The notes under the pieces are model-generated. The model ran no database searches. It had not been told where the DNA came from and worked only from the letters and a program-made list of their open reading frames with translations. A stretch of DNA of 64,000 bases from assembly GCA_905479105.1 (NCBI GenBank), contig CAJQLE010000005.1, positions 62,001-126,000 of the forward strand, written 5' to 3'. The stretch is from an uncultured Flavobacteriales bacterium. Its GTDB lineage: Bacteria; Bacteroidota; Bacteroidia; Flavobacteriales_G; Salibacteraceae. Shown here piece by piece: positions 51,123-52,466 of the stretch (positions are counted from its first letter, which is position 1; every line of letters starts with the position of its first letter). The position numbers were made by a program, and so were the translations under genes.

Positions 51123-51395
51123 ATGAATAAAGCTGAATTGATTGACGCTATGGCTAACGGAGCCGGAATTTCTAAAGCTGATGCTAAAAAAGCATTAGAT
51201 GCATTTATCGACACTACAACTGGCGCACTTAAGAAAGGTGACAGAGTTGCTCTTGTTGGATTTGGTTCTTTCTCTGTATCTAACCGTTCTGCTCGTACAG
51301 GTCGTAACCCGCAAACTGGTAAAGAAATTAAGATCGCTGCTAAGAACGTTGTTAAGTTCAAAGCAGGAGCTGACCTAGGTGGAGCTGTAAACTAA
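51123..51395 (+). CDS. hup: HU-family DNA-binding protein
   Basis: 90 aa, complete HU fold: '[40 protein letters not shown]', then '[30 protein letters not shown]' with the DNA-intercalating Arg-Asn-Pro arm, and '[11 protein letters not shown]'. It bends and compacts DNA as a homo- or heterodimer. Codon use points to high expression. A terminator follows, and the THX-H1 gene is next, so two basic chromatin- or ribosome-related genes are adjacent. Confidence 0.96.
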
Positions 51396-51411: not shown

Positions 51412-51443
51412 AAAAAAGCCTCTCCGAATGGAGGGGTTTTTTT
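51412..51443 (+). terminator. Rho-independent terminator after HU
   Basis: AAAAAGCCTCTCC pairs with GGAGGGGTTTTT (with G-U pairs) around GAAT, then more T. It separates hup from the THX-H1 gene. Confidence 0.85.
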
Positions 51444-51498
51444 ATGCCTTAACCTCATCGATGGATTCCTATATTTGCCCCAAATCAATTCGACTAAC

Positions 51499-51819
51499 AT
51501 GGGAAAAGGAGATATTAAAACAGCGAAAGGAAAACGAATTGCCGGCAGTTACGGAAACAAGAGAAAGCGCAAGAAAGCAAAGCCAGCATTAGTAGCTACA
51601 AAGAAAACCGTAGCGAAAAAAGCAGCCACCAAAAAACCAGCAGCACCAGCAGCGGCAAAGAAAACGACAACTAAAGCTACTGCCACTAAAGCGGCAAGTT
51701 CAACTACAGTAAAGAAAACAGCAACTAAAGCTACTGCCACTAAAGCAGCAGAAAAGAAGGCCCCAGCAAAGAAAGCTCCTGCAAAGAAGCCTGCCGCTAA
51801 GAAAACAGAAGACAAATAG
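51499..51819 (+). CDS. Ribosomal protein THX with a histone-H1-like Lys/Ala tail
   Basis: 106 aa from the ATG at 51499. The first 28 residues (MGKGDIKTAKGKRIAGSYG) match the 30S protein THX, which is normally a free 25-45 residue peptide that fits in the head of the small subunit. The remaining 78 residues are a repeat-rich tail of Lys, Ala, Thr and Pro (KKPAAPAAAKK, 'TKATATKAA' twice, 'KKAPAKKAPAKKPAAKK') as in histone H1-like bacterial proteins. The DNA of the tail is repetitive. A frame at 51475 would add eight residues without family match and was not chosen. The tail may bind rRNA or DNA; this is inference. Confidence 0.85.
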   Translation: MGKGDIKTAKGKRIAGSYGNKRKRKKAKPALVATKKTVAKKAATKKPAAPAAAKKTTTKATATKAASSTTVKKTATKATATKAAEKKAPAKKAPAKKPAAKKTEDK

Positions 51820-51833
51820 AGTTTTATATACTC

Positions 51834-52466
51834 TTAAGGAAAGAGCCTTTTGAATTTCCAACGATTTTCAAAGGGCTCATATTTTATTCGGTCGTGTAAC
51901 CTGCTGGCCCTACCCTGCCAAAATTCAATTAAACTTGGCTGAATAATGTAGCCTCCCCAAAATTCAGGTCGAGGTACATCTTTGTTTTCAAACTTTTGAG
52001 TAACCTCTTGGAACCTCTTCTCCAATTGATCTCGAGAAGTCATTTCATCACTTTGATCGCTCGCCCAAGCTCCTATTTGACTTTCACGAGGACGTGATTT
52101 GAAATAAGCATCACTCTCAGCTTCGGGTAACTTTATAACTGTTCCTTCGACTCTAACTTGACGCTCCACCCAAGGCCAAAAGAAGTTAACCGCAGCATTC
52201 GGATTTTCTTTTAATTCACTTGCCTTTTTACTCGAATAATTCGAATAAAAAATAACTCCACGTTCATCGAGTTTTCTAATTAACACAACCCTGCTTGATG
52301 GCTTTCCTTCAGCACTGACTGTTGTGAGAGTCATGGCGTTTGCATCCTGAGTCTCCTTAAGGGCCTCATTCAACCAATTCTCCAGCATTTCAATGGGGTT
52401 TTCCAAACAATCTGACTCTTCTAAAACATGCTTAACATAGTCTTTTCTAACCGCTTCATAACTCAT
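51834..52466 (-). CDS. pdxH: Pyridoxamine 5'-phosphate oxidase
   Basis: 210 aa FMN enzyme that makes pyridoxal 5'-phosphate. Features: 'DANAMTLTTVSAEGKPSSRVVLIRKLDERGVIFYSNYSSKKASEL' (FMN site), 'FFWPWVERQVRVEGTV', 'ESDAYFKSRPRESQIGAWASDQS' and the final 'EFWQGRASRLHDRI.Y'. It ends 'WKFKRLFP', as usual for the family. It serves the PLP enzymes such as RocD in the cell. Divergent from yqgE with a short AT-rich gap. Confidence 0.96.
   Translation of the reverse strand: MSYEAVRKDYVKHVLEESDCLENPIEMLENWLNEALKETQDANAMTLTTVSAEGKPSSRVVLIRKLDERGVIFYSNYSSKKASELKENPNAAVNFFWPWVERQVRVEGTVIKLPEAESDAYFKSRPRESQIGAWASDQSDEMTSRDQLEKRFQEVTQKFENKDVPRPEFWGGYIIQPSLIEFWQGRASRLHDRIKYEPFENRWKFKRLFP

Follow-up and report, generated by a model that had tools for sequence, protein, structure and literature searches.

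The segment at 51499-51819 on the forward strand of the window (the whole 64,000-nt stretch of DNA that was analysed) is one open reading frame of 106 residues, starting with an ATG at 51499 and closing with a stop codon at 51817..51819 (+). Residues 1-26 (MGKGDIKTAKGKRIAGSYGNKRKRKK; 51499..51576, +) form the core of THX, which is among the smallest ribosomal proteins. Residues 27-106 (51577..51816, +) form a Lys/Ala/Thr/Pro tail with KKxxx pentads and a net charge of +21. The upstream neighbour is an HU gene (51123..51395, +), the 90-aa product of which has no tail, and between HU and THX there is a terminator-like hairpin (51419-51434) with a T-run (51419..51443, +). Downstream, pdxH (51834..52466, -) is convergent with THX. 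Upstream alignment located TATATTTG at 51470..51477 (+), which fits the Bacteroidota -7 element TAHHTTTG, described as the promoter element of Flavobacterium (PMC6847099). Nine of 10 aligned order members have a TAnnTTTG ahead of THX, L021 being the one without it. There is an A at both -3 and -6 of the THX ATG, positions that are favourable according to PMC6847099. Together with the promoter-like element, these bases point to ATG 51499 as the start, with a leader of probably about 17 bases. A start at the upstream TTG (51475) was ruled out, as that codon lies inside the promoter-like element. No sigma-70 site was found upstream of THX, in a scan that does not cover the Bacteroidota promoter type.

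The identification of the protein as THX, made in the initial annotation, was borne out by the ribo_THX model TIGR04560, which scored 38 bits on residues 1-26 against a cut-off of 26. The score of the Pfam Thx model on the same core was 19.4, below its cut-off of 29.7, and counts against the assignment. A phmmer search with the core matched mitochondrial and chloroplast S31/bTHX chains as well as a 27-residue bacterial (Thermus-type) Thx. Among 20 aligned THX sequences M1, G2, G4, D5, G11, K12, G19 and R22 are invariant and K3 is nearly so. The THX residues reported to contact h41-h43 of 16S rRNA are K3, D5, R9, R10 and W14 (PMC11711686). Measured against the contacts given there, the window protein has K3, D5 and a basic K10, with A and I at positions 9 and 14, which are variable among the 20 aligned members. 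The bacterial THX chains in the PDB, of 24-27 aa, share the 26-residue core with the window protein and differ from it by the 80-residue C-terminal tail. The organelle bTHX chains of 94-101 aa (PDB) are built differently: their core starts only at residue 45-55, and roughly 20-23 residues follow the matched stretch. A search of the genome gave a single THX match, and the idea that a second THX serves the ribosome, leaving the window protein free for another job, was dropped for want of a second match. The window THX is probably built into ribosomes, in the 30S head.

As had been proposed, a genuine tail follows the core in frame. One objection would have been a translation start lying only within the tail; from codon 1 onward the THX frame contains no further ATG, GTG, TTG or CTG, so that there is no start inside the tail at any of the usual codons. 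Its length, first put at about 78 residues, is 80 if the core is taken as 26. It consists to 89% of K, A, T and P, with 24 basic and three acidic residues. The duplication of TKATATKAA was confirmed at the DNA level, with copies at 51670..51696 and 51724..51750 (both +) that agree in 26 of 27 bases. Tandem Repeats Finder gave the same 27-base period in the tail DNA, with 62% matches, and a repeat-family search (default seed, minimum length 15) found no family at the tail. This duplication, with its one difference, indicates that repeat duplication is one route by which tails of this kind lengthen. Copying from another gene of the genome was rejected as the source, since the 80-residue tail, searched against the genome, matched nothing but its own locus at E up to 0.01, low-complexity matches possibly being suppressed in such a search.

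The lysines are spaced regularly. There are 16 K-K pairs at a distance of five residues in the window tail, compared with 6.6 expected, and none of 2000 shuffles reached 16. The same was seen across 32 tails of the order, where 338 pairs at distance 5 were counted against 163 in shuffles (z = 20), and where distances 2 and 3 are avoided. The motif KK[SPTA]3KK is found at four sites in the window tail, and the slightly broader KK[APTSV]3KK is present in 28 of 32 tails of the order vs four of 72 outside it. AlphaFold2, run with an 18-sequence alignment, placed no helix or strand element, and block pLDDT was 54-70 over residues 31-106. Low confidence without predicted elements is what a disordered chain would give, and the tail is probably disordered inside the cell.

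The description of the tail as histone-H1-like was sound as far as composition and spacing are concerned, but is unsupported as a fusion to a histone-like domain. Pfam HC2 scored 17 bits against a cut-off of 40, the Burkholderia H1-like model hist_H1_lk_Burk scored 18.9 against 80, Pfam Hc1 gave no listing for the protein, and none of the histone models of Pfam and NCBIfam reached its cut-off on it. With scores under the curated cut-offs, a separate histone domain was rejected. The resemblance to HC2 nevertheless goes beyond composition, as the real tail is matched at E 0.0097 whereas none of nine shuffled tails is matched at E up to 10.

THX was found in 33 of 42 genomes of the order, and one sequence (L024), cut by a contig end, was left out of the statistics. 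The 32 complete proteins have a median length of 89 aa (38-130), and at least 60 residues are present in 28 of them. A sample of the phylum gave a THX match in 74 of 392 genomes, the window's own included; the first pass here was coarser, yielding three candidates in the window's own genome vs 28 in the genome search, and misses are therefore likely. Outside the order this sample yielded 72 parsed THX, with a median length of 41 aa and a range of 31-145; nine of them have at least 60 residues. L089 and L096, in which the start pattern was not recognised, were left out of the sample, and L108 and L109, from one genome, were both kept among the 72. These two copies lie at the two ends of a single contig, the L109 tail is partly frame-changed, and they probably represent an assembly overlap. 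The statement that THX is normally a short peptide is thus correct for most of the phylum sample, but length is unstable, long proteins are usual in the order, and the window protein, at 106 aa, is not a short peptide. Even among the 12 members of the same genus tail length varies between 12 and 101 residues. Two of these tails, of 12 (L014) and 20 residues (L012), show that a long arm is dispensable.

Named genome contigs were also scanned. The best 80 of 187 relatives were taken, a choice biased to the query, of which 78 are complete (the cut loci L201 and L208 were left out of the survey). Six of the 80 encode the THX of an order locus (L133, L136, L139, L156, L159 and L175), and a small number of the named or phylum loci duplicate one another. 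Among these best 80 of 187, 34 have titles that place them in Xanthomonadaceae or other Pseudomonadota; their THX are 51-68 aa long (median 60) and 30 of the 34 carry a KKxxxKK pentad. Examples of Xanthomonadaceae-titled records with KKxxx-tailed THX are L138, L151, L171 and L178. The other 44 of the best 80 of 187, which include the six order genes, have at least 60 aa in 33 and the pentad in 30. Tailed THX is neither unique to the window nor confined to its order.

The longest frames beginning with a THX core, 131-452 aa, are in metagenome-assembled genomes (MAGs) titled Bacteroidales, Bacteroidetes and Paludibacter, outside the order. In one Paludibacter MAG (L160:1501-2856) the core is in frame with about 420 more residues. 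On this frame Pfam gives Thx alone, just below the cut-off, and PADLOC gives nothing; one stretch of the extension resembles what we take to be a PD-(D/E)XK nuclease motif. A Bacteroidales MAG (L205:1501-2256) encodes a 252-residue THX, also with Thx as its one Pfam match, in which an extended Lys/Glu/Ala tail is present along with some 70 C-terminal residues that include hydrophobic ones. Two records titled Glaciecola (L130, Gammaproteobacteria) and Sphingomonadales (L153) contain THX genes that look to us Bacteroidota-like, and may be mislabelled or cases of transfer.

Constraint on the tail was assessed with the near relatives L013 and L015. Aligned basic residues of the window tail are still basic at 19/20 and 18/21 positions, respectively. 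In 120 alignments each with shuffled tails the mean fractions kept basic were 0.56 and 0.58, and the observed values were reached by none of the 120 in both. Neutral residues of the tail are identical at 24/44 and 22/44 positions, against a shuffled mean of 0.39, values reached by 0 and 7 of 120. A three-way alignment gave basic residues kept at 19/20, 19/20 and 21/22, with neutral residues identical at 23/44, 13/44 and 25/42. The tail is not a chance sequence: among near relatives the positions of the lysines are kept while neutral residues are swapped. Synonymous differences in the tail number 35 at 49.7 sites (pS 0.70), similar to pdxH (0.72) and a cupin gene (0.64). The dN of the tail is 0.23 and its dN/dS about 0.11, a figure that is only rough because dS is near saturation; tail dS could not be computed for the two pairs involving L015. 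There is less synonymous change in HU and in the THX core than in the tail, presumably because of codon bias.

The genome has 10 sites of the pentad KK[SPTA]3KK and eight of a backwards control pattern, so the number of pentads is not special and only their placement is telling. All 10 sites are in frame in open reading frames: four in THX, two in bL21, two in bS1, one in an ATPase with two ABC domains (which we name ABC-F-type) and one in a DUF5606 protein. In bL21, recognised by Pfam L21 and adjoined by an ORF read as bL27, both pentads are in a C-terminal tail; in bS1, where five S1 stretches were matched, both are in an N-terminal tail. The DUF5606/DUF6852 protein (L112:1036-1620) has a Lys-rich tail of its own (KAKPKKAPSKKKSDTPKAKAAPKRS). 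The initial annotation had presented the tailed THX as a fusion. A one-off histone fusion is not upheld, with long tails usual in the order, tails also present in Pseudomonadota, and like arrays on bL21 and bS1.

The bL21 tails were followed further. Of 35 genomes searched, 34 matched and 30 loci were fetched; L230, in which the pattern is absent, was left out. With the end of the fold set by hand, bL21 extends 12-110 residues past the L21 fold in all 29 loci read, the window's own included. Tail lengths of bL21 and THX show no clear correlation (rho 0.32, p 0.14, n = 23). Coordinated growth of the two tails is thus not clearly indicated. In eight of 12 same-genus bL21 the tail has a net charge of -2 to 0 or a folded end segment. 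Eight of the 12 (L211, L212, L213, L216, L217, L219, L220 and L221) end in a folded-looking sequence, DLSSMTVAELKDMAK...KKAELIEAL; Rho_N was over the cut-off on this segment in the two that were scanned, and the bL21 of the window's genome is without it.

We consider it somewhat better than an even chance that the THX tail is a disordered polycationic arm which leaves the 30S head and holds RNA electrostatically, in a lineage that tends to put tails on its ribosomal proteins, bL21 and bS1 among them. The 26-residue core would thread into the 16S rRNA of the 30S head, like other THX, and the 80-residue tail would remain disordered and leave the core as a flexible polycation. The evenly spaced lysine pairs could then contact, irrespective of sequence, the phosphates of rRNA and of other RNA close by (mRNA, adjacent ribosomes). 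Such binding may aid 30S assembly or stability, and may raise the local affinity for RNA. Selection would maintain the charge and its spacing, rather than exact sequence or length. That RNA is the partner is suggested by the ribosomal setting and by the parallel tails of bL21 and bS1. DNA and polyphosphate might also be bound, given the KPAA tails of AlgP and PhaF (PMC9239181) and a resemblance to HC2 beyond that of shuffled tails. Since spacing is kept and length is not, a non-specific electrostatic arm fits better than a docking device, and a range of 12 to 101 residues within one genus speaks against a device built for exact docking or for hibernation. Weighing against the RNA-holding arm are the dispensability of a long tail in L014 and L012, a number of pentad sites little different from that of the control pattern, the unclear relation between bL21 and THX tail lengths, the bL21 tails of the genus that are neutral to slightly acidic or fold-ended, and the reported DNA binding of KPAA-type tails (PMC9239181).

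Other readings of the tail have to be weighed against an RNA-holding arm. It may be a tolerated by-product, in which an unstructured C-terminus lengthens and shortens by repeat slippage and stays basic only through the damage that acidic or hydrophobic residues would do to the ribosome. The variable length of the tail within the genus, the nearly identical 27-base duplication and the equally variable tails of bL21 (12-110) would all be expected if this were so. However, conservation of the lysine positions and of their five-residue spacing far exceeds that in shuffled tails, and 28 of 32 THX of the order hold at least 60 residues. Avoidance of harmful residues also leaves the period of five unexplained, though duplication of a five-residue unit could give part of it, and on the whole we regard a by-product as rather unlikely.

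The tail might instead bind DNA and anchor ribosomes, or unattached THX, to the nucleoid, by analogy with PhaF and AlgP, the KPAA tails of which have been proposed to tie granules to it (PMC9239181). The HC2-like spacing speaks for this, although the HC2 score is far under its cut-off, and so does the position of HU, which precedes THX on the same strand, at a distance of no more than 700 bases, at 23 of 33 order loci. HU is similarly placed at four of 30 phylum loci and, among the best 80 of 187 named loci, at four, all of them copies of order loci. HU adjoins short- and long-tailed THX alike (the short ones being of 38 and 46 aa), which weakens adjacency as a sign of a nucleoid role. The nucleoid protein Hc1 is nearly absent from the order, being found in one of 42 genomes vs 247 of 392 for the phylum, and the window's genome gave no Hc1 match at E up to 0.001. 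The sole order genome with an Hc1 match (G004) has no THX match. That long tails arose from the loss of Hc1 was unsupported outside the order, where long tails were found in six of 43 Hc1-positive and two of 28 Hc1-negative genomes (p 0.47). As eight of the 10 pentad sites are moreover on ribosomal proteins, tethering to the nucleoid appears unlikely. A wider scheme, in which pentad-tailed THX, bL21 and bS1 make the ribosome of this Hc1-poor order a polyvalent organiser resembling chromatin, able to gather ribosomes into clusters or anchor them on nucleoid DNA or polyphosphate, strikes us as decidedly speculative and improbable. A device for stress, with the tails clustering or parking ribosomes in stationary phase or binding polyphosphate in starvation, seems the least probable. 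Three ribosomal proteins with polycationic arms could link particles to one another, and the KPAA-tailed AlgP is reported to localise to polyphosphate granules (PMC9239181).

As a single gene the window THX is fairly ordinary for its order. A lineage with a constrained, lysine-paired tail on THX, together with tails on bL21 and bS1, is a bacterial parallel to the H1-like ribosomal tails of insects, and a simple system for asking what such tails do. It is also a caution that 'histone-like' sequence in a bacterium may indicate ribosomes instead of the nucleoid. In the open papers that were searched for THX, bTHX and lysine-rich or H1-like ribosomal extensions no title or opening of an abstract dealt with THX tails, and a paper on the Flavobacterium ribosome (PMC9976891) makes no mention of THX.

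Several known proteins resemble the window protein in part. Chlamydial HC2 and the Burkholderia H1-like proteins are stand-alone nucleoid proteins with weak profile similarity to the window tail, far below the curated cut-offs; for HC2, none of the nine shuffled tails shows it. In mycobacterial HupB, KKAPAKK-type repeats form a tail on HU, whereas the HU that adjoins the window THX is without one. The tails of AlgP and PhaF of Pseudomonas, reported to bind DNA (PMC9239181), are likewise disordered bacterial Lys/Ala/Pro repeats that have been likened to H1, but they are built of KPAA tetrads rather than KKxxx pentads and belong to non-ribosomal proteins, the AlgP tail following a predicted helical domain. 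Mosquito RPS6 has the nearest described counterpart, an H1-like extension that is reported to be retained in protein from ribosomal subunits, and fly L22 and L23a have similar tails (PMC548281). In these accounts the resemblance to H1 is judged to be convergent, and the tails evolve faster than the core (PMC548281, PMC11764897). The RPS6, L22 and L23a tails differ from that of the window THX in being on other, eukaryotic proteins and also glutamate-rich, and those of L22 and L23a are N-terminal. All have a Lys/Ala-rich tail on a ribosomal protein, and the window THX, like mosquito RPS6, is a ribosomal core with an in-frame, low-complexity, Lys/Ala-rich terminal tail.
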